Origin: Rhizophagus irregularis
Lineage: Eukaryota > Glomeromycota > Glomeromycetes > Glomerales > Glomeraceae
Assembly (NCBI RefSeq): GCF_026210795.1
Contig: NC_089440.1
Span: 992,001-1,056,000 of the forward strand
Direction of reading: 5' to 3'
Length of the DNA stretch: 64,000 nt
The notes beneath the pieces are model-generated. The model was given only the letters and a program-made list of their open reading frames with translations. It was not told the origin of the DNA and ran no database searches. How positions within the stretch are numbered: the stretch's first letter is position 1; every line of letters begins with the position of its first letter. The position numbers and the translations under genes are program-made. Below are positions 42,901 through 57,265 of this stretch, one piece after another.

Positions 42901-43446
42901 CCATAACAACACAAAGATTAGTTGCCTATTTTCTTGTTCGCAAAGTGATAGAGGAACTATTTAAGAGTAATGTTCGTGAAAATAGAAACATAGAAGAATG
43001 TGCAGATCCTACCTTAACTCCTAAGGATATTGTTACTCTGAATCAAGCAGAATCTTCAAAATTTTCTTATATTATAGGCTGGGTACTCTTCAAATTACTT
43101 AAAAGAGACCATTTAATGAATTTCCATCCAAAATTTCCAATTATGCACACTTTACTTGGAGCTCTCTGTACAGAAAAAGTTGAATATGTGGCGGAAACCA
43201 AAACACGGACCACTAACATTATACCTGGGCCTGAATTCATACGGTTTATGTATTATTTAGAATCTTTAGTAATTGAATTGTTCAAAAAATATAACGAATT
43301 GGGACCAAACATTTTGCGCTATGTGAAAAATAGTCTTCTTTCTAATTTACCTTTAAATCAAAATTTTATTACAATTTTGAAATATTCAACAAATAATAAT
43401 ATCGAATTGGAAAATGAAGAATTTGGATTTATTTACGAAAGGTGTA

Positions 43447-44407
43447 CAGTCAACTCCCTCTATAGTCACTCCCGTTATAGTCACATTCTACTATATAGTC
43501 ACACCAGTTGAATGTTCAAAACACTTTATTATTAAAATCTATCCTATATAGTCACAATCTATCTATAGTCACTATCACACCTATCCTCATAAATCTTATA
43601 TTAAAAAGAACCGTTTATAATCACTGTTATATAAAGAATATATTAAATAACTTGGCATCTAATAATCGTACAAATATGTATCATAGCTTGTTAGAATCGT
43701 CTCACTGAGACGAATCGAATGGTGGTAGTTTTATCCTTTTATGATCACTGGCTGACGAGTTATTCAACAAAATGTTAAACATCGGCATTATAATATTTCT
43801 TGATTTACGTTTACTGCGCTATTTAACATTTTGCTAGATTTCTCGGTACCTAGTGATTGTAAAAAGACGATTTATAGCTCGTTGGAATTGCCTCATCAAG
43901 ACGAATCGAATGGTGGTAAGCTCATCTCTCTGTGATTAATATTGACGGAGTTATTACTTTTAAACCATTTAATATTTTTTAATTTCGGAAATTGATCTAG
44001 TGATCGGATTTCGATGTATCTTATACCATTAGATTCGTCTCATCTAGACGAATCGAATGGTAGTAAGATCGTCTTTCTAGGATCAATATTGGCAGAGTTA
44101 TTACACAAAAACCATTAATATTTTTTTAATTTCGGAAATTAATCTAGTGATTGGATTACGACGTATTTTATACCATTAGAACCGTCTCATCAAGACGAAT
44201 CGAATGGCGGTAAGATCATCTCTCTACGATTAATATTGGCGAAGTTACGATACAATAAAGTTTTAAGTATAATTCTGGCTAAAATTATGTTAATTTTTGG
44301 CCGGAATTATGATATACAAATATAAGAAATTTTTTATATAGTCACATCTTTTTATAATCACCAAATATGGACTGTCCCAAATGTGTGACTATAAAGAGAG
44401 TTGACTG
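43447..44407. mobile_element. 961-bp mariner/pogo-type MITE, TA duplication
   Basis: CAGTCAACTCCCTCTATAGTC at the left pairs with the right end, reversed CAGTCAACTCTCTTTATAGTC. TA flanks both sides (43445-43446 and 44408-44409). Removing it joins YERC to ISIYMKS in the P-like gene in frame. The interior holds four copies of the GTCTCATC-AGACGAATCGAATGG module as a tandem array and TTCTGGCTAAAATTA/TGGCCGGAATTA motifs near 44271-44310. No transposase. Confidence 0.88.
43687..44252 (+). repeat. Tandem array of a GTCTC…GAGAC-containing unit
   Basis: Four units have cores at 43697-43727, 43890-43918, 44030-44066 and 44181-44212. The core is a short hairpin (CGTCTCATC-AGACG) followed by AATCGAATGGTGGTAAG, then CTCTCTA-GATTAATATTG and ACGGAGTTATTAC. 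Units 2-4 have a period of about 145 bp. Related units occur in two other elements (46802-47388 and 51075-52271). Confidence 0.8.
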
Positions 44408-45573
44408 TATCTCAATCTATATGAAAAGTCGTCAAAAAACATGGAGGGACGTTAATAATTATATTCCAGAAAAAGGCACCGCAAGTTTAAGAGAAAACTT
44501 GAAAACAATGCGTTCAAGTCATTCTACAACAGAAAATAAAAAACCCTCTCTCATGAAAAAAGCAAATTTACCTACTAATCCTGCTCATGCTTTGGAACAA
44601 CTTCGGGTATGAGCGCAGCTTGAAGAAGTAGAAGATTCATTCGCTAAAATGTTTTTAGTATCAGAATTATTGTGGTTAATCTGGGCATTTGGGACTTCAA
44701 CACCATATAAAAAAAAACAAAAGTTGGTACCTATAATTATTTTCAACTTGAAAAATCGGTCACCTTTTACTGACGAAGCATTTAACTAAGAATTGTTTCA
44801 TAGATAATTGTGTCATTGTTCGATATAAATAAAGTAAAAAATATACTACGATTAAAAAAATTTTATTATTAATTTTCCCGACTGAGAAAAAAATATTAAT
44901 TACATAGAAACCCTTAATTAAACATATTTGAGCTAACCAGAAAGCCAATAACGCGCTAAATGCTATGAAACTTTGGCAGTAAACAGTTCTTTTGTATGCT
45001 ACTTTATGCTCGAACATCAGCTTTTAGAAACGTTGTGTGTCAAAAGTTTTAGGCTTGAGATATTTTTTTTATATAGTAAAAAAAAATGATCAGTATAAAT
45101 TCAGGGGTGACAGTTTTGATGGTGACACAAAAAATAAAAAAAATAAGTTGTCCTCCCACACCCCTAGTAAATACTATCAAATTACCCCTCTATAATCACA
45201 ATTTGACTATAATCACTATCACCGCATAATCCCAAACGGATATATCATTTCTATTAATGATTAGACCTCTATTAATCACATCATAATTTCGGCCAAAAAG
45301 CAATTTCACCCAGAATTACGAAACATATAATTTTTTCTTTCCTTTTTAGGAATTAATGTTACACAACATTCCAACACAAAATCAGCAAAAAGATTTTTTG
45401 TGAAATGGCTATCACCAAAAAAGGAAATATCCGTAGTGATCACATAATTTTATAAATTATAATTTACTAATTTTGGTCAAAATTAAGATATAGTACCTGT
45501 ATATAAGCACACCCCTATACAATCACTAATTTTATGGGAACCAATTAGGTGACTATATGAGGGTCTGACTGTA

Positions 45574-45839
45574 TACTGTTTAATAAAGTAATATATAAAA
45601 CAAACATATATAAAATAAATCTTTTTGTAACAAAGTTTTTTATAGTAAATTTTTTTTATTATAACAAAGAATTTTGCAAAATGAAATTTTACCATAAAAG
45701 ACAATTTACATAGTTTTTTCAAATATAGTAATTTTTAACCATTTTTCTTAAATAATAATGATAGAAGTTCATATTTCACATTTTATTATTTTATAACTTC
45801 ATTTTTTACTTTGCCTCACATATATTTTTAATATGCCAA
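45574..45839. other. No gene seen
   Basis: A+T-rich spacer between the mariner-type right end and the pogo relic. An antisense frame here is low-complexity (K/F/Y-rich) and is rejected. Confidence 0.4.
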
Positions 45840-46590
45840 AAATAACCATTAGAACATAATATAATAATAAAATTCCTAAAAAATATAAGTCTCTTACTAT
45901 GGCACAAAAAAAATAAACCTGTTTAAGGAAAATATCTAAGTCTTTTTTTAAAATAAAAAGAGTTGATTAATAAATATAAAGTTAATGAAGGAATGATTAG
46001 TGATATTTTAAAAGCAAAAAACTGATAGCTTTATGTTGATTTTAATAATTCACATTAATTGAAATTGGTTTGAAGTATAAAAAAAACTTCTATTTATTAT
46101 TATTGAAGAAGCTTTATTTCTTTAAGTAGAAAATGCCCTTTAAATTGAATTTAATATTAGTTACAAAATTCTCAAAATTAAGGCTTTAGAATTTGCTTTT
46201 TTATGTAAAAAAAAAAAAATTTAAAAGAATCAATCGAGTGGATTGATAATTTTAAAAAGTGGTATAATCTTAAAAAATAAATATACATAAGAAAGCAGTA
46301 GGTATACTACTTTAAAATCTTAATGCAATACATAAAAATCTTTATCAAACTCTAAAGAATTCTGCTCCTGAAAATATTTTTAATTGAAATGAAATAGGTA
46401 TTTTTTGGAAAATAAAACTTAACCATATAATATCAAATAGTTCAATTGTTAGAACAAAACAATTAAAAAATCATATAACTGTTTTACTTACCTGTAATAC
46501 AACTGGAAGTGAAAAAATATGCCCATTATTTATACACAAATATAAAAATCTATAAGCCCTTAAAAATATCAACAAGTTGATATATTTTTT
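45840..46590 (+). pseudogene. pogo/Tigger-type (DDE_1) transposase relic
   Basis: Broken frames read in order KKYKSLTMAQKK, then YKVNEGMISDILKAKN (an HTH-like pogo DNA-binding part), FKKWYNLKK, NLYQTLKNSAPENIFN, then a stop followed by NEIGIFWKIKLNH where family members have the NCDETG catalytic motif, and HITVLLTCNTTGSEK, CPLFIHKYKN. The order matches Tigger/jerky-like transposases. Many stops and shifts, and loss of the catalytic Asp, make it dead. It lies just right of CAGT-ended elements and may be a relative of their former transposase source. Confidence 0.65.
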
Positions 46591-46801
46591 TTTTCATTGA
46601 CAATATATCAACCTATGTCTTATATGACAATATATATTTTATTAATATTATAATTGAACACTTTTCTTCAAATATTACAGCAGTATTACAATACACTTAC
46701 AACTGTATAATCAAGGAACCATTAATAGTTTTAAAGTAATTTATTTATTTTATCAATATTTTTAATATAAGGTTTAAAATTTGAACGCACCTGCGTTTGA
46801 A

Positions 46802-47388
46802 CTATATATGAAACTGAAATTGGTTAATTTTGACCTCTGAAATGGTCAAAATGGTCAAAATGATTTCGACTTGAGCCCCTCCAAAGTTGAAATGGTCAAA
46901 ATTATATCATAGCTAGTCATATGATTTTATAGTAAACAATAATATTAAAATTTAAAGTTAACGAACTCCGCATCCAGTGATTCAATTTTTATGATCTTTA
47001 TACAGTTGGATTCAGCTCATCGAGAGGATTCCATGATATGTATTTCATATTTGTAGCATCAATATTGACGAAGTTATTCACGTTTAAAATTTGGTATTAA
47101 ATAGTCTTATAATTTTTACAATAATTTTAAAATTCAAAGTTAACGATCTCCGCATCCAGTGATTCGATTTTTATGATCTTTACGCGGTTGGATTCAGCTC
47201 ATAAAATGGATTCCAATGATATGTATTTCATATCTGTAGCATCAATATTGACGGAGTTATTCACGTTTAAAATTTTATATTAAATTATAATTATGTAATT
47301 TTGACCATTTCGACTTTAATTTTGACTTTTGACCATCCCAAGTCAAAATATTTCTACTTTTGGGCTTTAATTTCGACTTCATGTATAG
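46802..47388. mobile_element. 587-bp inverted-repeat element with GTCTC-type module
   Basis: The ends CTATATATGAAACTGAAAT and, reversed, CTATACATGAAGTCGAAAT pair, and TTTGAA flanks both sides (46796-46801 and 47389-47394). The interior has two direct copies (about 46945-47095 and 47115-47275) of a block containing CGCATCCAGTGATTC, GTTGGATTCAGCTCAT, and ATCAATATTGACG-AGTTATTCACG, plus GACTTTTGACC-type repeats at both ends. No coding capacity. Confidence 0.75.
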
Positions 47389-47672
47389 TTTGAATGCACC
47401 CCCCTTTTTTTGAAATTTTTAAATAGTAAATTTGTTGATCATTTATGATAGGGTTTTGATCCTTTTTTAAGCTATCCAGATGAATCTGTTATTCAAGCTT
47501 AATTAGGATGATCCTTATGATGGATTTAGACAGATTGTGTAATCCAGATTTGCAGATTGGACGGATTGTAATCCAGATTAGTATATAAATAGTTAAATAC
47601 TGATTTGCTATATTAATAATCACTATTTACTTGAACAAAATTCTTTACGTCCCACTTAAATTATTGTTAACA

Positions 47673-49346
47673 ATGGAAAATAATAATATTGAAATTGATT
47701 TGGATAATGAAGTATCTCCTAATAGAAGTTTACGAAGGCCTTTAAGTTCAAAGAATACAAATTTAGAAACTACTGTCCATGAAATTAGAAGAAAAGGTTG
47801 TAAAATAATTCTTTTTATTAAAAAGAATAAAAAATTTATCTTTTTTTAATTAATGTTTATAAAAGAGAAAAGAAATTATACAAGTATCACATATAGTTAT
47901 TTTACAAAATGTTCTGATATTAATGGAGAATTATGCATATGTACATTTTTGGATGAAAAGGGAAATCGTTGTGGAAAAACTTATCGAAATATGGGTAGTT
48001 CAACTGGAAATCTACTTCGTCATCTTGATGAAGCATATCAAATATGTTCAAATAGTCATAATAATAAAAAGGTACTGTATATAGTTAATGTATATAGTTA
48101 ATAATTTACATTTAATTTATTTATTACTTTTTTGCTATTTAATAATTAAAATCTATTTTAGGTACGAACACAAAACAGTCAACCACATCCTCCAGATGTT
48201 CAGAGACAACGTGAAGAATTAATATTAAAGTGAATGTTAAAAACAAACCAGCCTCTTTCTGTTATTACAAACGAAGCGTATAAGGAAAAAATGGCTGAAT
48301 TTGATCCAGCATTTGTTATACCAGGGGAGAAAAAATTCGTACTATGATTGGAAGGAGTTTTAATCATAGTCAACAAATTCTTCAAAATCTTATTAATGAA
48401 ACTTCACAAAACGTTTCTTTAACAGCTGTCTTTTAGTCAAGTCAATCAAAACATAGCTATTTGGAAATAACTGCTGTATGGATTATACCAATATTTGAGA
48501 TAAAAGATGTAATGTTAGAGATTGAATATATACCAGCTCCTCATATATCAGAAATGATTGCCAATTCATTTTATAAATTTATTTCAAGTTGGAATTTAAG
48601 AAACCGGATTACTTCAATTACCATTGATAATGGTGCAAATATGGTTGCAGCAGTTCGTTCTTTAAAAGAAAAATCTGGGTGTATTAATATCCAACATATG
48701 CCATGTGCTAGTCATACCTTACAACTTGCTATTGGAAAGGGATTGGCATATGCAGAAGCCTTAATAGCACGAGCAAAAAAATTGATATGATTCTTTGGAA
48801 CTCAAAGTAGAGCGGCTACTTGAAGTTGAAAAAAAGCTTGGTTATGAAGATTGTTTACACCTTATCCAACTTGTTAGAACTCAACATATTATGCTTAGGA
48901 TTATCTTTTTTTTCTTAAAGATGTTATTGTTCAACTTCAAACAGATTTATGTATATCAACAAATAATGAAGATAAAAGAGATGGTAAAAAACTCAAAAAT
49001 ATTATACTTTCAGATGAAGAGTGGGAATTAATAGACCAATTAGTTAATTTGTTAATGCCGTTTGAAAATGCTACCTGTGAATTTTCAGGTGGAATATATA
49101 TTACTTTTAATAAGTAAAATGATTGATACTATTAAATAATTGATTTTCGACTTGGCTGATTTTCTAGCATTATCACCTATTAATCCTTCAGAAGACAATA
49201 CAGCATTTGGGTTAGAAGAGATTATTGAACCAATTGAAGTTGTTGAAGTTGATGATAATGAAGTAATTGGCAATTATACAAAAAGAAAAATCTCAATAAA
49301 AAATCCTTTGAACACAGCTGGAATCTTAAATACAATTAAAGCCAAA

Positions 49347-49384
<38 letters not shown>

Positions 49385-49984
49385 ATATACTATTCATTAA
49401 TTTATTATTGGAATATTCCAATTGATTCCAGATTTTTAGCCACACTCTTAGATCCACATTATAAAAATCTGGATTGTGTAGAGGTTGAAAATAAAAAGAC
49501 CTGCATTATGCAAAAACTTTATTATGAGTATGAATCAATGAAAGGTACACCTATACCAGTTAAAAGTCCTGAATATCTTTCTACTGATGCAAATAAAAAT
49601 ACACATTCATATAAACAATATCACCAAAATCGACTTGACAAGAAAAAAAAGAAAGCCCTAAATGAACTATCAGAAGAAGATGAAATAACAAGATTTTTAG
49701 AAATGCAAGTAGCTTTGGAAGTAGAAAATCCATTGGAATAGTGGGGAAAAAATTCACAAAATTTTCCAATTCTTTCTCAGCTTGCTCAAAAATATTTGGC
49801 TATACCCGGCAAGTGAACGCTTATTCTTAAACGCCAGAAGCCTTATTTCTCCTCTTAGAAATCGTCTTAATCCAACATTAGTAACTAAAATGCTCTTTTT
49901 AAAACGAAATATAAAAGTTAAAAAAGTTTTCACGCCAGATTGGAATAACTTAGAAGATGAAGCATTATTAGAAATAGAAGTATA
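47673..49984 (+). pseudogene. hAT transposase, BED-finger type, dead
   Basis: Exon-like pieces in order: acidic start at 47673; a BED-type zinc finger (FTKCSDINGELCICTFLDEK, then CGKTY…GNLLRHL, 47895-48030); the catalytic core with HSYLEITAVWIIP, ITSITIDNGANMVAA, MPCASHTLQLAIGKGL (48450-48780); DEEWELIDQLVNLLMPFENAT near 49015-49075; and the C-terminal dimerisation region FPILSQLAQKYLAIP…ASERLF and LISPLRNRLNPTLV (49750-49900). Stops at 48231, 48435, 48788 and 49739, frameshifts, and a small deletion in the dimerisation motif show decay. The first catalytic Asp appears as Val next to a TAG. An AT microsatellite interrupts 49347-49390. Family placement is confident. Confidence 0.82.
49347..49390. 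repeat. AT microsatellite in the hAT transposase relic
   Basis: Alternating TATA for about 40 bp with one ACAT interruption. Confidence 0.8.
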
Positions 49985-50015
49985 ATAATTTTATATTGTA
50001 TACTAATATTATTAA

Positions 50016-50063
50016 AATAATAAAAAAAAGATTTTATATAATATACATAATATTAAATAATTT
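50016..50063. repeat. 48-bp target duplication of the LINE, left copy
   Basis: This sequence, starting AATAATAAAAAAAAG, recurs at 57498-57545 immediately after the LINE poly-A tail with a single C/T difference. Confidence 0.75.
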
Positions 50064-50186
50064 ATTAATTTTATATTGTATACCAACATTATTAAAATAA
50101 TAAAAAAGACATTTTTTTTTGCGAAACATTTCTTAAGAATTTTTAAGCTAATCAATTAGAAAATAAAATTTTAGGATAAATATTGA

Positions 50187-51074
50187 ATGATATTGGAGAA
50201 GAGAATAATGCCATTTAAAACAATAAAGAATTTGTTTAGCTGGTCTAAACAAAAACTTACTGCGCTAACGTCAATTAACAAAGAAACAGAAACTGCAAGT
50301 AAATTAGAATTGGAAGAGGGAGAACTTGAACAACTCCCCAAAACTTTCCCAAATGACAATCAGGACAACAACAAGACGCGTACACAACAGACAAAGACTA
50401 ATTATACACAATCAAATGACAATCAGGACAACAACAAGACGCGTACACAACAGGCAAAGACTAACTATACACAACTAAATGCAAATGTATATAACAACAA
50501 CAACAACGCGGAGATTAACAACACATTCAATTTAACGTTTATGGGACACAACATTAACGGGCTGGGCCCAGATCATTCCAAACTTAACTTACTAACGGAA
50601 TATTGCTCAAACAAGGGAGCTGACATAATAGGTATATGTGAAACAAACAGAGATAGAAAACACGGTGAATATTGGAATAAGCAAAGCTTAGTATACACCT
50701 CTTTCTGGACTAATAAAGACAATAAGATAAAAGGATCCGGAGTGTGCATAATGATCAATAAGAAATGGGAAAAACACATTGGAAAAATTAGAAGATTGGG
50801 TGCATACTATATAGAAGCTTAGTTGTTCTTTAAGAATTGCACGCTCATAATAGGTGTAATTTATTTACCACCATCAGACACGAAAAAACAAAACGAGCTC
50901 ACAAACTACATTAAAAAAGAATTCACTAATCACAGCAAGAAAAACAGGTATTACGTTTTGATAGGAGATCTCAATTCATACATGGATAGAACATTAGATT
51001 ATAGTGGCCCATCCAAACTTGGAAAAAGACCTTCAAATATTATTACATGGCTAGACAACGCCTTCTTTACGGAC
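50187..51074 (+). pseudogene. LINE ORF, N-terminal part: linker and endonuclease first half
   Basis: The frame opens at 50187 (MILEKRIMPFKTIKNLF; an internal Met at residue 8 is an alternative). A 21-residue unit (NDNQDNNKTRTQQTKTNYTQ plus S) is repeated in tandem (50352-50477). The endonuclease begins near 50535 with LTFMGHNINGLGPDHSKL, then ADIIGICETN (catalytic Glu), and after the stop YYVLIGDLNSYMD (GDxN motif). A single in-frame TAG at 50820-50822 interrupts it where Trp would fit. It ends at FFTD, where the foldback element is inserted. Confidence 0.8.
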
Positions 51075-52271
51075 TAAAGCTCTGAACGGTTCCGATTTGA
51101 ACCGGGAACCGATCCGGAACTGGCAAAAAATTCGGTTCGATTCTCGGTTCGGTTTTGGACTTGGAACCGTCCGGTTCGGTTCAGTTCTATCCGAAATTAA
51201 GAAAAAATGCGAAAAAACGAATATACGACTATCCAGTGATCGTACAAGGACGAGCCATAGCTCGTTGGAATCCTCTCATCGAGACGCGTCGAATGGTGGT
51301 ATAATCAAGTCTCTAGCATCGATACATCACGAGATAGCACATGGTGAGTGTTTCTTAAAAAATTTGCATTAGAAAACGATCCATTGATGCTAGAGACATG
51401 AATTTACCACCATTCGACGCATCTCGACGAGACGAATCTAATGAGCTATAATTCGTCTTTTTACAATCACTGGATGGTCGTGTATTCGTTTTTTCGCATT
51501 TTTTTTAAATTTTCGAACGTCAAAAATTGAAATTCCGATACAAGCGATTAAACGGCATCTATTGATCACACAAAGACGAATTTTAGCTCATTGGATTCGT
51601 CTCACTGAGACGAGTCGAATAGTGGTAAAATGATGTCACTAGCATCGATAGATCGTTTTCTAATGCGAATTGTTTAAGAAACACTCACCATGGGCTATCT
51701 CACGATCTATCGATGCTAGAGACTTGATTATACCACCATTCGACTCGTCTCAGTGAGACGAATCCAATGAGCTAAAATTCGTCTTTGTATGATCAATAGA
51801 TGCCGTTTAATCTCTTGTATCGGAATTTTAATTTTTGACGTTCGAAAATTTAAAAAAAATGCGAAAAAACGAATACACGACCATCCAGTGATTGCAAAAA
51901 GACGAATTATAGCTCATTAGATTCGTCTCGTTGAGATGCGTCGAATGGTGGTAAATTCATGTCTCTAGCATCAATGGATCGTTTTCTAATACAAATTTTT
52001 TAAGAAACACTCACCATGTTCTATCTCGTGATGTATCGATGCTAGAGGCTTGATTTTACCACCATTCGACGCGTCTCGATGAGAGGATTCCAACGAGCTA
52101 TGGCTCGTCCTTGTACGATCACTGGATGGTCGTGTATTCATTTTTTCGCATTTTTCTTAATTTCGGATAGAACTGAACCGAACCGGACAGTTCCGGTTCG
52201 GTTCCATTTTGGTTTTCGGTTCTACCCGAACCGCAAAAAAACCGAACTGAACCGACCCATTCAGAGCTTTA
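51075..52271. mobile_element. Foldback element in the LINE, exact 8-bp duplication
   Basis: TTACGGAC flanks both sides exactly (51067-51074 and 52272-52279), and the ends read TAAAGCTCTGAA / TTCAGAGCTTTA. The two halves (about 600 bp each) are inverted copies over most of their length, including long stretches of GGTTCGGTT-type repeat near the ends. Inside are six copies of the GTCTCATCGAGACG-type module arranged as three head-to-head pairs with centres near 51350, 51680 and 52005. Removing the element and one duplication joins FFTD to TYRKLNP in frame. No protein of its own. The duplication length suggests hAT-type mobilisation. Confidence 0.9.
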
Positions 52272-53263
52272 TTACGGACACATATAGGAAACTAAATCCC
52301 AAAAAGAGATGTTTCACATGGAAAAATAAGAATACATCAACCAGAATTGATTACATTTGGGCGGACCCCAAGCTCGAAGCTAACATCAAAAAAAGCCACA
52401 TATATCAATCGGTTGACATTACAGACAGTGATCACAACATCACACTTGCAGAAATCTCGTTCACCAGTATAATAGTCACTAACAATAAAGGAGGCAGAAG
52501 AGCAGAAAAAGGCTCAACACGCATCGTATATGATTATGAGAATACCACCAACGAACAGTGGAATGCATATGAGAATTACCTTAAGATCCTTCTGGAAAAA
52601 CACAAGGCCTTTGGATACATAGAAACCCATGGACATAATGAAAATACACTGAACAAATTGTGGGACATTATATGTAATTGTGTACAACAAGCCGCACTCA
52701 AACACATTCCACACAAAAAGATAGGTGGGGTCAAAACCAATTTTAATAGAAACTACAAAGAAATCGAAGATTCCTCTAAAGAACGTAAAGACCTATTATA
52801 TATTAGAAGCATAATGAGGAAATTATATAAAAATGAATTAAAGGGAATGGAACTACTTAACGCATCGAAAAGAATCAAATCATTCAACCAACGCTATAGA
52901 ACTGATATAGCAGAAATAACGGAAAACACAGACTGGAATACATGGAAGTGTGAAATGAGAAATTGGTTGAAAATAGTGAGAAGAGTGATTAAAACAAAGG
53001 ATAAGGCGATTAAAGAAGCATCAATAAAAAAAAGGATTGAGGAAAGAAATAGTATGATCACTAAGGATCAACGGAAAATGATTAATAGCATCTTGGACAA
53101 GAAATATTCAAAAATCAGCCTAGATAAAGTGCGTATACTTACGGACGCACAAGAAGAAATACTGCTGAACTCTAAAGAGGAAGTTCATGCAGAAGCGATC
53201 AATACATATTCATCCCTATTCCGTTCACGAAATCATAAGTTTGAGAACCTTCCAGAACCTTAA
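52272..53263 (+). pseudogene. LINE ORF, middle: endonuclease second half and linker
   Basis: From TYRKLNPKKRCFTW through STRIDYIWADPKL to SVDITDSDHNITLAEI, the SDH motif is the endonuclease active-site His region (near 52430). A helical, Lys/Glu-rich linker follows. An in-frame TAA (53261-53263) after LPEP separates it from the RT part; the frame continues in phase, so one base change explains the break (Gln CAA would fit). The longer apparent frame beginning at 52079 is not real upstream of 52272 because that part is foldback sequence. Confidence 0.8.
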
Positions 53264-53350
53264 AAAGAAATATATGAACCACGGAAAGACATAGACCCAA
53301 AAATATACGAACATCTAGATGACATTCCGACAGAACAAGAATGGTATGAG

Positions 53351-56300
53351 ATGCTTGAAACCATGAATGACAAATCAACCCCAGGGATATCCAACATTAG
53401 CTATAAACTAATCAAAAAAGCGGGTGCAAAGATCAATGACTTGTTCAGACAATACACGGGGTTATGTTATTTACTGCAAAACATACCGTTGAAATGGAAA
53501 ATCTCACAATTATATCCAATCCCTAAGACATACGACTGGGATTTCAACTTAGCGAGGACAAGGCCAATCCTACTTATCGAATGCTTACGTAAATGTGCGG
53601 TTAAAATCATCACAAAACGCTTTGGAAATATACTTAGCAAACACGCCATTCTGAAAGGGCCGAATTACGCAGGATTACCAGGAGAATCAACATCGGCATC
53701 ACTAGCAATAATAAATGGCATCTTGGAAGATGCGCGTGATGAAAACAAGACTTTATGGATAGTAGCCCAGGATATGGCGAAGGCTTTCGACAGTGTTGGA
53801 ATGATTCCCCTTCAAAAAGCCTTAGAAAGAATAAGATTGCCAACATCTACCACTAATTTTATTATAAACATTTTCAAGAACAGGAAAATCAAAATCATCA
53901 TGGCGTACGGCTTAACTGATACATTCACCGCAAGCGACGGCATAGACCAAGGGGAAGTGATCTCACCCTTAATATGGAGAATTTTCTATGATCCCCTGCT
54001 TCACAGAATACAGGAAGATGAAGCTTTAGGATACTGTATGGAGATGAAATGGCCAGATAACGTTGCTAATAACAATAAACGGAATATAATGATACGAACT
54101 GCTGCGTCAGCCTATGCAGACGACACTCAATGGATTGCTAAAAGCAAAGATGAAGCAAAAGCAATCTCACTAATCGCGGATGAGTTCTTTGATATTAATG
54201 ACATAAAAATTAATGAGAAAAAAATGGAAATCATTGTTGTAAACTCAGAAGAGAGAAACGAAGAGGAAAATTTCTTAGAGATAGGGAAAAATAACAATAA
54301 AGTGTTAGTTAACAAGGGATCAGTTCCAATTCGAATTTTGGGAGTTTGGTTTAAGGCAGATAAAGGTGATAAACACACAGAGGATATAGTTAAGAAGGAA
54401 ATTTCAACAATAGTGGGGGCGATTAAACGCAAACACATAACACATGTGCAAGCGATATACATTATCAATACTGTATTACTCCCATGCCTAGAATATAGAC
54501 TTAAAACAACCGTTTGGGAAGACAAGAAATATGAGGAGTTTTTCAAGCCGGTAATGCAAATAATTAAACACAAAACACGACTCCCCAGAAACTGCCACGA
54601 TAATATTCTTCTCCACTCAGCACAAGGCAAATTAAAGAACCTGTGGAGAAACCAAGTGGCAGCACAGATAACGGAATTTTTAGTTGCCATTAATTTCCGA
54701 TCAAAACAGGCTGACATAATCAAGATGAGATTAAAAAAGGCGCAGTTAATCTTGAACATATCGTCATGTGTTCTCTTGATGAAACCGGACGTCACAGTTT
54801 CCAACAAAATGTCGAATAATCACGCTTATAATGTAATGAGGAAAGCACATGATTACTTATTTAAATTTCACCCACTATCAGACAACAAAGAATGGGACAT
54901 ACCATTAATAGGTCCGAATGTAAGAAATTTTGTATACCAACAGGCGCTGAAGATGCACACGAAAGATAAAGAACTTATTATAAGAAAAGCGGCATCTATG
55001 TCAATTTATGGTGCATTACAACTGGTTAATCAAGATGCTTCAGATACAGTCACATGGCAACAGATTTGTGACGTCAATAAAAGACCAGCTAGGGGAAAAA
55101 TTCTGAGATGGTTCACTTTACTAGCGGAACTCATACAGAAGGCATCTTATTTAAAGGATTTCTGTATGACAGAGAGGACGCCCTTTAATTCAGAAAATTC
55201 CTTAAAACATGAAGGAAGTGATTTAGAAAATGCACAGGCATTTAGAATGTTAAAGAAACCTCCATCCATAGATAACAGAAAGAAAGAATTCGTCCACATG
55301 CAGCAGGATCACACACTAACATTTGGACAAATTAATAAAAAACATCAAACTGGCAAACATACAATACAACACTGGGTTATAACAGACAGTGAGCAGAAAA
55401 TGGATAATGAAAAGCCATACAAAATAATTAAGCGATGTGGAGGTTGTTTACTAAATGATAGAAGAGTCAATAAAGAAACTCATGGCTGCTATTTTAACAA
55501 AGACCGCCTGTTATTAACTTGTATAAATAGAGTACCCAAATACCGAAATGATCCAGATACTAGAATAGTAAAAGACATTATAGAAAATAGAAATTATTCA
55601 CTTCCACAACAAACTGTAGAATATAGTCTTGTGGGTATACAGATTTCAGACTATGATACGGCCTTAATCCAAAACACATTGTTAGACAATAAAGCCATAC
55701 AACAGCATACAACATTATCACAACAAATAAGACTGAATTTCGTCCCACATTATACGATTAACATATACACAGATGGCTCACTAACAAATCGTTTTAACAA
55801 CAGCTCTAACACATTTACAAAACTCATGGGCACAGGTTGGGTAATATTGAATAATAAAGATGAAGTAATATTAGAATGCAACAGTTCAATCACAGATTGG
55901 CCTTTATCCACACGTGCAGAACTAGGAGCCATTCTGTCAGCCATATTAGTTTTACAGACAGGACAGAAAGCAAATATTATTACAGACTCACAAGCTGCCA
56001 TAGATAGTATTAATCACACAAGAACAAATCTAACAAATGGTAAAAACAAAACTCGAACATGGTGCAAATGTAACAACTATAGTATAGTAAGTAGTATAAT
56101 TAACCTTATTGATAGTAAACAGTTAGAAATAAAGTTGGTAAAAGTTAAAGGTCACTCAGGAGTCAAGGGCAATGAAGAAGCAGATAGGGTGGCAAAAAAC
56201 AATACAAAGAAACCAACTTGCATCAATATTAAAGATTCACAACAAAAGGATTTAATATATGATATCTACTGGAATGGCAAAAGATTCGACAGAAATATCA

Positions 56301-57265
56301 GAAAATTTATAGATAAATTGTGTGAAACTACATTAGATGCTGCATGGTCCCTCAACCGTACACATAGATCAGTCTTTTCAGATACAACTGACACAATAGA
56401 AGAAGAGGTTACTTGGACACTGTTTAAAAAAAATACAGGACACAACTGTACAACATCACTAACAAATGACAGATTCATCAAACACTTGAAACTTTTAAAT
56501 TGTTTGCTCCCAACTCTAGAAATCATGAAGGAAAGAAGATATGACTTATATGGAGATGTAAAATGTAGGTTTTGTCTTGAAGAAAATGAAGATGATGATC
56601 ATATGATATATTGTCAACAGCTCAGTAATAAGTGGACAATTGTAGCTGACAACACTGTATGTAAATGTAATCAAATAATTAAAAATTTTTTATTACAAGA
56701 AAAACATATTCAATTAAGTCAAGAAGACACACAACAACTGCTCTCATGGAATAACAACTTCTTTGCTAACACAACTGCTGTTGATTTGAATATGCCTATT
56801 CCCTATGTTCACTTAATGATAAAAAGTTTTTTTCCAAAAGGAAAATACAAGGAACTCAAGACCATTGTTAAGTCAAAGAGAATAGCATTAACTATTGCAG
56901 CCCTTTTCTTGGAAGTATTTGTTAGTGAATTTTACAATATCATCTGGCAACCACGTTGTAAGGCAGTAGTAGAATGGGAACATACTAAAGGCATAAAAAA
57001 ACAAGATTTAAGGAAAAGGCCATTAGCATATCAACGCATTGCATACAATCGGATTCTAACTATACAAACAGAAGAGGGTACGTTTGATTTGGAAAAAAGA
57101 AAAATTTTGAAACATAATGAACAATGGTCAATAGCATTAGAAAAAACAAAACAATACATTAACCAATTTATTAGAGAAGGAAACAGGGTACTTTGGAAGG
57201 TATATAATAATACAAAAATATACAAATATAATATAACCTTTCTTTTTTTTTTATCTAGAGGGTAG
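53351..57265 (+). CDS. LINE reverse transcriptase - RNase H (1304 codons open)
   Basis: Copies LINE RNA at the target site. RT landmarks: YPIPKTYDWDFNLARTRPI (about residues 55-72), YAGLPGESTSASLAI (about 103), AQDMAKAFDSVG (catalytic Asp region, about 137), GIDQGEVISPLIWRI (about 198) and AYADDTQW (YADD box, about 253-260). RNase H is at about 801-950 with all four acidic or His landmarks visible: IYTDGS, RAELGA, ITDSQAA, KGHSGVKGNEEADR. A C-terminal CRFC…DDDHMIYC knuckle is near 1071-1087. This part is open throughout, so the element was active recently in evolutionary terms. The true frame begins upstream of the first Met at 53351, since it runs on from 53264. Confidence 0.88.
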   Translation: MLETMNDKSTPGISNISYKLIKKAGAKINDLFRQYTGLCYLLQNIPLKWKISQLYPIPKTYDWDFNLARTRPILLIECLRKCAVKIITKRFGNILSKHAILKGPNYAGLPGESTSASLAIINGILEDARDENKTLWIVAQDMAKAFDSVGMIPLQKALERIRLPTSTTNFIINIFKNRKIKIIMAYGLTDTFTASDGIDQGEVISPLIWRIFYDPLLHRIQEDEALGYCMEMKWPDNVANNNKRNIMIRTAASAYADDTQWIAKSKDEAKAISLIADEFFDINDIKINEKKMEIIVVNSEERNEEENFLEIGKNNNKVLVNKGSVPIRILGVWFKADKGDKHTEDIVKKEISTIVGAIKRKHITHVQAIYIINTVLLPCLEYRLKTTVWEDKKYEEFFKPVMQIIKHKTRLPRNCHDNILLHSAQGKLKNLWRNQVAAQITEFLVAINFRSKQADIIKMRLKKAQLILNISSCVLLMKPDVTVSNKMSNNHAYNVMRKAHDYLFKFHPLSDNKEWDIPLIGPNVRNFVYQQALKMHTKDKELIIRKAASMSIYGALQLVNQDASDTVTWQQICDVNKRPARGKILRWFTLLAELIQKASYLKDFCMTERTPFNSENSLKHEGSDLENAQAFRMLKKPPSIDNRKKEFVHMQQDHTLTFGQINKKHQTGKHTIQHWVITDSEQKMDNEKPYKIIKRCGGCLLNDRRVNKETHGCYFNKDRLLLTCINRVPKYRNDPDTRIVKDIIENRNYSLPQQTVEYSLVGIQISDYDTALIQNTLLDNKAIQQHTTLSQQIRLNFVPHYTINIYTDGSLTNRFNNSSNTFTKLMGTGWVILNNKDEVILECNSSITDWPLSTRAELGAILSAILVLQTGQKANIITDSQAAIDSINHTRTNLTNGKNKTRTWCKCNNYSIVSSIINLIDSKQLEIKLVKVKGHSGVKGNEEADRVAKNNTKKPTCINIKDSQQKDLIYDIYWNGKRFDRNIRKFIDKLCETTLDAAWSLNRTHRSVFSDTTDTIEEEVTWTLFKKNTGHNCTTSLTNDRFIKHLKLLNCLLPTLEIMKERRYDLYGDVKCRFCLEENEDDDHMIYCQQLSNKWTIVADNTVCKCNQIIKNFLLQEKHIQLSQEDTQQLLSWNNNFFANTTAVDLNMPIPYVHLMIKSFFPKGKYKELKTIVKSKRIALTIAALFLEVFVSEFYNIIWQPRCKAVVEWEHTKGIKKQDLRKRPLAYQRIAYNRILTIQTEEGTFDLEKRKILKHNEQWSIALEKTKQYINQFIREGNRVLWKVYNNTKIYKYNITFLFFLSRG

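Follow-up and report, generated by a model that had tools for sequence, protein, structure and literature searches.

A palindromic module within several DNA transposon families of Rhizophagus irregularis serves as the insertion target of a LINE and a SINE-like element

Introduction

Site-specific non-LTR retrotransposons, such as R1, R2 and those of the telomeric and snRNA-gene types, encode a reverse transcriptase and insert at a fixed point of a repeated target. The best known of them use host repeats such as rDNA. In Xenopus, the LINE Tx1L is reported to insert at one site of the DNA transposon Tx1D, which would be the only host element; a literature search for both names retrieved no paper. 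Repeat arrays that are carried inside mobile elements or derive from them include the central tandem repeats of Helitrons (DINE-TR1) and MITE-linked satellites such as BIV160 (PMC6947457), in each of which a repeat is tied to one element type. Short mobile palindromes and double-hairpin elements occur in many contexts in organelles and bacteria.

Here we describe a module of the arbuscular mycorrhizal fungus Rhizophagus irregularis that shares traits with each of these systems. Unlike the targets of R1 and R2, it is a palindrome with two mirror insertion sites, it is lodged in DNA transposons, and it is used by both a LINE and a SINE-like element. Unlike the Tx1L target, it is found in many host families, and in contrast to DINE-TR1 and BIV160 it sits in element types with three classes of target duplication. 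It differs from the organellar and bacterial palindromes in being nuclear, internal to transposons, and a retroelement target. Neither the module nor a site-specific LINE of this fungus is mentioned in the literature consulted (among others PMC11075540, PMC8647823, PMC6947457, PMC3747384 and PMC5035012), which left out most subscription papers and all supplements.

The module and its hosts

The analysis started from a window of 64,000 nucleotides (assembly GCF_026210795.1, contig NC_089440.1, positions 992,001 to 1,056,000), in which a first-pass annotation had noticed that a block of about 100 bp, containing a small hairpin, recurs twelve times in three elements with unrelated terminal repeats, designated here M (four copies), S (two diverged copies) and F (six copies). 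This observation is correct. A profile built from 11 of the 12 copies recovers all of them (Table 1), but since only the copy at 43656-43763 was not among the seeds, the profile scan alone is circular. The annotation had named chance similarity and nesting as the outcomes that would overturn it. In an independent test, profiles built from the modules of one element and scored on the two others gave 13.6-65.2 bits, whereas the best scores in 500 dinucleotide shuffles each were 6.8-10.1 bits, such that 0 of 500 shuffles reached the real score in all six comparisons. The three elements are not nested in one another.

Table 1. Coordinates, within the window, of the three elements, their modules and the retroelement target sites
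Feature	Position	Strand	Description	Basis
Element M	43447..44407	+	TIR CAGTCAACTCCCTCTATAGTCAC; TA duplication at 43445-43446 and 44408-44409; four modules	Scan for TIR and duplication; relatives L001-L020
Module M1	43656..43763	+	97-bp palindrome plus edges; carries the preferred retroelement target, uninterrupted in this copy	Profile; breakpoints in other copies
Empty target site	43726..43740	+	TAGTTTTATCCTTTT; duplicated on insertion of A or B in other copies	Breakpoints of 17 other M copies
Module M2	43848..43955	+		Profile
Mirror target	43860..43872	+	TAAAAAGACGATT in the left arm of M2	A and B in opposite orientation at loci L113 and L117; L121 is the far end of the L113 insertion
Module M3	43995..44102	+		Profile
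Module M4	44142..44248	+		Profile
Element S	46803..47387	+	TIR TATATATGAAACTGAA; 8-bp duplication GTTTGAAC/GTTTGAAT at 46795-46802 and 47388-47395	Scan for TIR and duplication; genome relatives
Module S1	46971..47077	+	Diverged	Profile
Module S2	47153..47261	+	Diverged	Profile
Element F	51075..52271	+	Foldback; TIR TAAAGCTCTGAACGG; 8-bp duplication TTACGGAC at 51067-51074 and 52272-52279; three head-to-head module pairs	Scan for TIR and duplication; genome copies
Module F1	51231..51325	+		Profile
Module F2	51381..51476	-		Profile
Module F3	51556..51651	+		Profile
Module F4	51707..51802	-		Profile
Module F5	51882..51977	+		Profile
Module F6	52033..52128	-		Profile

The annotation requires two corrections. 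The duplication that bounds S has 8 bp rather than 6 bp; the two copies differ by one mismatch in the window but are exact (GACTGGAT) in its relative L034. The small hairpin is the centre of an imperfect palindrome of 97 bp, as revealed by the profile, which also matches the opposite strand of the modules in the window with 16.5-36.5 bits. The core between the two CCAGTGAT-type arms measures 77 nt in 9 of 11 family sequences and 76 nt in 2, and is thus of near-constant length. The TA flanks of M and the 8-bp flanks of F were confirmed.

The module is abundant throughout the genome, as a 22-mer of its core yielded 2,396 hits (1194+1202), whereas the reversed control yielded 0/0. It was found in nine element types, with TA (M, E8), 8-bp (S, F, E4, E5, E6, E7) and 9-bp (E9, which is coding) duplications. 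A single scan for ends plus duplication revealed TA in 10 of 20 M loci, exact duplications in 2 of 3 F loci, one exact duplication (L034) and one with 1 mismatch (the window copy) among 6 S loci, 12 of 14 for E4 (8 exact, 4 with 1 mismatch), 9 exact and 1 with a mismatch of 18 for E5, 6 of 7 for E6 (5 exact) and 1 of 6 for E7; the 8-bp duplication is thus exact in at least one copy of each of the six types, but in only one for E7 and for S. TA flanks the 3 copies of E8 that have both ends, of 4 copies, and exact 9-bp duplications occur in 3 of 5 E9 copies with both ends located, of 6 copies. M and E4 share a module-linker-module stretch of 310 bp with 71% identity (E 1.5e-49). The likeness is weaker in E5 and E9. 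In pairwise blastn comparisons of 11 elements, including a further one designated L027, 4 of 55 pairs gave nothing (M-E5, F-E5, E5-L027, S-L027); E5 shares little more than the arms, and the 9-bp class rests on one diverged module, whose best match is to S (E 4.7e-11). The two reading frames of E9 gave no Pfam transposase.

A search of Rfam returned 15 matches up to E 5, none above the cut-off of its family; the strong ones were miRNA-precursor models on the long hairpin of F, and these were rejected. No tRNA gene was found in six host loci, and a Pol III-like reading of TAGCTCGTTGG was considered but dropped for want of a test. Viral contigs contained 0 matches to the 20-base arm.

The module as a retroelement target

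In 17 of 39 M copies, the first module is split within the same 15 bp (M 279-294) by copies of a 970-bp SINE-like element (A) or of a LINE (B). The M loci were not drawn at random, the second 20 being chosen mostly away from listed exact module hits, and the value is therefore not a frequency. Inserts of 72, 116, 395 and 970 bp begin with the same A or B end, and the B inserts of 72 and 395 bp lie between copies of the target, which shows 5' truncation with target duplication. All 19 of 19 sampled A/B 3' ends (9 of 9 for B) lie at this target, one of them at the mirror site in the other arm, as do 6 of 6 LINE copies chosen by their protein, one of which was the locus of the query itself. Two insertions, at L113 and L117, occupy the mirror site. 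Insertions were seen mostly in M and in one E4-type array but not in F, S and E5-E9, which were not surveyed systematically.

B encodes a reverse transcriptase (PF00078, E 8e-7; with 29.4 bits just below the curated cut-off of 29.6) and an RNase H (PF00075, E 4.8e-8, above its cut-off). The LINE protein has no PDB relative by sequence. In A, GGTTCGATTCC within the first 120 bases was read by eye as a B box, but ARAGORN finds no gene in A. A has no 3' tail clearly shared with B, only a few letters being alike by eye.

Origin and spread of the module

According to the model we favor, in which we have good confidence, the module is one homologous, imperfect palindrome of roughly 97 bp, which in some hosts forms a repeat unit of about 182 bp together with a second palindromic linker. 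It has become internal cargo of several mostly non-autonomous DNA transposon families with different ends and would be copied and spread by the transposases that act on those ends. The arms are the site-specific integration target of B and A, which insert at mirror positions in either arm, duplicate about 15 bp, are often 5'-truncated and re-use the duplicated target so that head-to-tail stacks build up. The homology, the diversity of hosts, the target duplications, the fixed insertion site, the truncation, and the reverse transcriptase and RNase H of B are directly supported by the data. By contrast, it is only inferred that insertion occurs by target-primed reverse transcription, with an endonuclease making the cut, that the proteins of B also move A, and that the module entered each host by rare capture, through gap repair or template switching between nested elements, and then expanded in place.

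The modules mostly group by host, which suggests that capture was rare. Host labels on a module tree require 9 changes, where the least possible number is 8 and the shuffled mean is 50.7, although the tree rests on 108 columns and has weak deep forks. No capture event was seen and no pre-capture version of a host was found, only a distant TA-ended relative without the module in the window. The annotation had offered sequence capture, a satellite that seeds new elements, or a common functional site as explanations, and its interpretation is supported in part. Capture is the best reading of how the module reached its hosts, and a functional site is right in an unforeseen sense, namely as the integration target of retroelements, whereas a satellite received no support in the loci read. 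Its claim that the three elements should belong to different superfamilies is weakened, since two of them fall into the same 8-bp duplication class, though their TIRs differ.

Among the alternatives, the most tenable, though still tentative, is that the module is a cis-acting site required by the DNA transposons themselves, for binding of a transposase or host factor or as a replication or transcription signal, which the retroelements merely exploit. The palindromic shape is kept in diverged families, as arm identity is 0.629 within a family and 0.502 between families (5 of 20000 permutations), and the palindrome is nearly perfect in E6 (0.94). However, the co-variation of the arms is lost when E5 and E6 are left out, as 3170 of 20000 permutations then reach the observed value, compared with 426 without E5 alone; gapped inner-arm identities were uninformative. 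M copies broken in M1 are common, which would argue against this reading if such copies still move.

It is doubtful that the module is a satellite captured from free arrays. Head-to-tail units of about 147 bp occur in M and of about 182 bp in E4, and one S copy (L033) has 6 units. Yet arrays in the loci scanned comprise 1-7 units, the longest within the E4 copy L045, no free array turned up in the loci read, which are a sample of the assembly, and the listed motif hits, the first 100 places of each search, lie in small dispersed clusters. It is equally doubtful that all hosts form one old lineage whose ends drifted. Some ends share their first bases, CAGTC in M and E8, TAAAG in F and E4, and AGGACCC in E5 and E7, but TA, 8-bp and 9-bp duplications point to different transposases, and the TA hosts M and E8 do not group together on the module tree, albeit with weak support. 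The module is unlikely to be itself a tiny palindromic MITE, with ends near ATATCTCGGCATCCAGTGATCG, that keeps jumping into other transposons, for although the arms are the part shared by all families, E5 included, the core length is nearly fixed, and GCATCCAGTGAT has 590 exact hits against 3 in the control, the copies cluster by host, unlike those of a hopping element, no solo copy outside a larger repeat was proven, and no target duplication hugging the module was noticed, without a systematic search.

A more speculative possibility, unlikely on present evidence, is that the module represents a third kind of mobile-element part, a palindromic docking module traded between DNA transposon superfamilies and used by a LINE/SINE pair as a portable safe haven. 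In this view, the insertions of the retroelements, which duplicate the arm and stack up in nested arrays, would help to spread the module and to keep it palindromic, so that two classes of selfish DNA would be locked into one shared site.

Here, the landing site is carried by other transposons, is present more than two thousand times and sits in host families that differ in their ends. This provides a natural system in which to study how parts move between transposon superfamilies, how a LINE and a SINE-like element come to share a target, and why mobile elements nest in each other. The module may also account for part of the unclassified repeats of an arbuscular mycorrhizal genome, and target-specific LINEs are of interest as insertion tools.

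Affiliation of the host elements

By the length of their target duplications alone, S, F, E4, E5, E6 and E7 are hAT-like and M and E8 are Tc1/mariner-like. Of 836 candidates, 150 hAT dimer domains were scored, none of which was tied to the ends of the 8-bp hosts. An F copy at C27 (L088) was considered as an autonomous version of F, but this was dismissed because the copy is cut inside a module by other DNA and the hAT frame lies beyond the cut. The end of M is matched with up to 2 mismatches at 465+472 places, which may include both ends of a copy.

Occurrence and anatomy of the module

The window belongs to contig C12 of a genome of 146.7 Mb in 32 contigs. The twelve copies of the module listed in the first-pass annotation are there, although 11 of them had seeded the profile with which they were found. 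To examine whether the resemblance is better than chance, a point that had been set beforehand as a possible refutation, profiles were built from the modules of one of the three window elements (M, S and F) and scored on the other two. They gave 33.7 bits (M to S), 65.2 bits (M to F), 37.3 bits (S to M), 19.8 bits (S to F), 63.7 bits (F to M) and 13.6 bits (F to S), whereas the best of 500 dinucleotide shuffles reached 6.8-10.1 and none attained the real score in any of the six comparisons. The original observation therefore holds. The element boundaries that had been given are correct to within a base, except that the middle element, S, for which a 6-bp duplication had been claimed, has an 8-bp duplication, with one mismatch in the window and exact (GACTGGAT) in L034, a locus with a relative of S.

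The module is an imperfect palindrome, since the profile matches the opposite strand of the modules over much of their length. Between the two CCAGTGAT-type arms lie 77 nt in 9 of 11 family sequences, one of which (locus L027) is a single copy, and 76 nt in the two types of the host element E5. The identity of the two 36-nt inner arms is 0.50-0.94 by family, in contrast to a mean of 0.30 and a 99th percentile of 0.50 in random 77-mers of the window. Arms match within a family better than between families (0.629 against 0.502; 5 of 20000 permutations), but this result rests on the hosts E5 and E6, as 426 of 20000 permutations reach the observed value without E5 and 3170 of 20000 without both. 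In the host E4 the repeat unit is about 182 bp, the second half of which is another palindromic linker. M and E4 share module-linker-module over 310 bp at 71% identity.

Abundance and host elements

Searches of the genome with parts of the module revealed 1194 + 1202 places for GAGACGAATCGAATGGTGGTAA with up to 2 mismatches (control 0/0), 643 + 657 for CTCGGCATCCAGTGATCG with up to 2 (control 0/0), 574 + 583 for TAGCTCGTTGGAATCGTCTCAT with up to 2 (control 0/0) and 311 + 279 for an exact match to GCATCCAGTGAT (control 3/0). The loci described here are a hand-picked sample from the first 100 places of each search, mostly from contigs C1 to C15.

The first sample consisted of 20 places with an exact core match, one of them a 22-base slip, of which the usable loci, 19 of 19, belonged to element M, whereas other patterns brought other hosts. 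A scan for known ends accompanied by a duplication identified M (CAGTCAACTCCCTCTATAG, TA) in 10 of 20 loci, the window included; S (TATATATGAAACTGAA, 8 bp) in 2 of 6, one of them exact; and F (TAAAGCTCTGAACGG, 8 bp: TTACGGAC, TAACTACC) in 2 of 3. E4 (TAAAGTTGCCTGCCGAA, 8 bp: AGTGTAAC, ATTATAAC, ATTATACC) was found in 12 of 14 loci, 8 of them exact, with several sharing one site because E4 lies inside a larger repeat. This repeat was recently amplified, in that the fetched flanks of four E4 copies (L022, L024, L028 and L030) are about 99-100% identical. E5 (AGGACCCCAGACATTAC, 8 bp) was found in 10 of 18 loci, 9 of them exact, although L078, with five mismatches in each end, is doubtful; E5 has a cousin core, GTAGCTCTCATCGAGCTCTAC. 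E6 (TAGAGATGCGATCCGAA, 8 bp) was found in 6 of 7 loci, 5 of them exact, and E7 (AGGACCCTGAAAAATAC, 8 bp: GCTTTAAT) in 1 of 6. The loci without a pair were fetched short, truncated or diverged. E8 has CAGTCGCGTCCGAAAGTG and TA in the 3 of 4 copies with both ends.

E9 is a ~4.55-kb element with two open frames of 426 and roughly 630 aa, in which no Pfam transposase was found but only RING-like matches below their cut-offs, in a C-terminal region. Its TIR is AGCATAGCGGACAT, and exact 9-bp duplications (TATCACGAT, GCCTAATAC and ACAATGGTC) flank 3 of the 5 copies whose two ends were located; in the other 2 the flanks do not match, and the left end of a sixth copy was not found. The six copies are 97-100% alike, and E9 is possibly an unclassified, recently active DNA transposon. 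It carries one diverged module between the last frame and the TIR, which scores 17 bits with the profile and is 63% identical with S over 179 bp (E 4.7e-11). L027, L079 and the extra copy in L011 are module loci in contexts without resolved ends.

In pairwise blastn of 11 interiors, 51 of 55 pairs gave a match at E 1e-3. The four blanks are M-E5, F-E5, E5-L027 and S-L027, which makes E5 the loosest relative. Some ends share their first letters (CAGTC; TAAAG; AGGACCC), and the number of independent host lineages may therefore be lower than nine. The superfamily names (Tc1/mariner-like, hAT-like) rest on duplication length alone. In one genome (G000), 150 hAT dimerisation domains were scored, of 836 candidates. 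In locus L088 an F copy is cut inside a module by sequence starting TAAAGATGGTCATCGG, with a hAT frame further on. The F element of the window lies inside another LINE-like stretch, in which frames before and after F read by eye like an endonuclease, and a 1304-aa frame like RT and RNase H.

Coordinates of the features in the window and at other loci of the genome
Feature	Sequence	Position
Window	C12	992001-1056000
Target in module M1 of element M	window	43726-43740
Target in module M2 of element M	window	43860-43872
TA-ended MITE-like stretch	window	45165-45580
LINE-like stretch around element F	window	50187-57265
Stacked A copies	C1	1408491-1411604
Element E9 (loci L091 + L057)	C1	2590309-2594859
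F copy cut inside a module	L088	1127
222-bp stretch with E7-type ends	L014	507-728

Descent of the module

A tree was constructed from 73 modules, with up to ten per host; copies that scored under 35 bits, were incomplete or lay at a locus edge were dropped before sampling, and E5 and E9 were not included. F, E4, E7, E8, S and E6 each form one group, M needs two changes and the two E10 rows do not group. All labels together require 9 changes, the least possible being 8 and the shuffled mean 50.7. Although the deep forks are weak, this fits rare capture followed by expansion inside each host rather than constant hopping. Two stretches in which no module was found resemble the hosts in their ends. 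One, in locus L014, has E7-type ends and an exact 8-bp duplication (ATATAGGC), and as the module profile found nothing in it, it is perhaps a host relative without the module. The other, in the window, is TA-ended and MITE-like, ends with ..GTGACTATATGAGGGTCTGACTGTAT and is a distant relative of M's ends; in it, too, no module was found.

The module as a retroelement target

Of 39 M copies, 19 came from the module sample and 20 were picked from the first 100 of 937 listed M-end places, mostly away from listed exact module hits. The first module is continuous in 20 of them, broken at one place in 17, and absent in 2, whose match stops at M 114 and M 54. The break is the same in the 17: the left piece ends at M 293/294 (12 loci) and the right piece starts at M 279-282 (10 loci), with 5 loci showing both, which gives a duplication TAGTTTTATCCTTTT of about 15 bp. 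The inserts are of two kinds, A (970 bp in L010, 116 bp in L018) and B (395 bp in L006, 72 bp in L012), with constant 3' ends and varying 5' ends. A starts with GGGTTGGTCACCC and holds a GGTTCGATTCC box, for which reason it is called SINE-like, but ARAGORN does not call a tRNA in it. B is a LINE: a copy in L141 has a frame of 1080 aa, open at its 5' side, with RVT_1 (29.4 bits, cut-off 29.6) and RNase H, and 104 protein matches are listed in the genome.

The 3' end of A, with up to 2 mismatches, was found at 142 + 151 places (control 0/0) and that of B, with up to 3, at 119 + 156 places (control 0/0). From the 100 listed places of each, 10 A and 9 B were picked by hand. All 19 abut the target: 18 have TTTTATCCTTTT exactly and 1 (L121) has the mirror-arm sequence AATCGTCTTTTTA. 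By comparison, 11 of 5000 random 32-mers of the window hold the 12-mer with up to one mismatch. Of the 19, 11 lie directly in a recognisable module, whereas of the other 8, as judged by eye, five lie beside what reads as the 5' end of an older A, two beside what looks like a B 5' end and one (L132) beside a tiny B fragment between two target copies. Of six LINE copies chosen by protein score, one being the query's own locus, 6 of 6 abut the target, three in a module and three beside A. In L113 and L117, A and B, respectively, sit in the left arm of the second module of M (M2) at the mirror position, in opposite orientation; L121 is the other end of the L113 insertion, so that these two are one locus. 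L032 has A in an E4-type module, with A sequence seen by eye on both sides of a short array. The palindrome therefore offers two targets. In the window's own M copy the targets in M1 and M2 are empty, and A is absent from the window.

The analysis thus demonstrates a homologous palindromic module inside DNA transposons of at least two duplication classes, or three if E9 is counted, and its use as a precise retroelement target. By contrast, target-primed reverse transcription, machinery shared by A and B, and capture as the route between hosts are inferences. The first-pass annotation had proposed that elements of different superfamilies share an internal module by sequence capture, through a satellite that seeds new elements, or as a common functional site, and this interpretation is partly supported. 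Transposons are among the known targets of non-LTR retrotransposons (PMC5035012), so that insertion into them follows an already known pattern; a target module that is spread over several transposon families and used by a LINE and a SINE-like element together was not encountered in the papers seen. On contig C1, A copies are stacked in one orientation, several of them at about 998-base spacing, as expected if each insertion leaves a fresh target.
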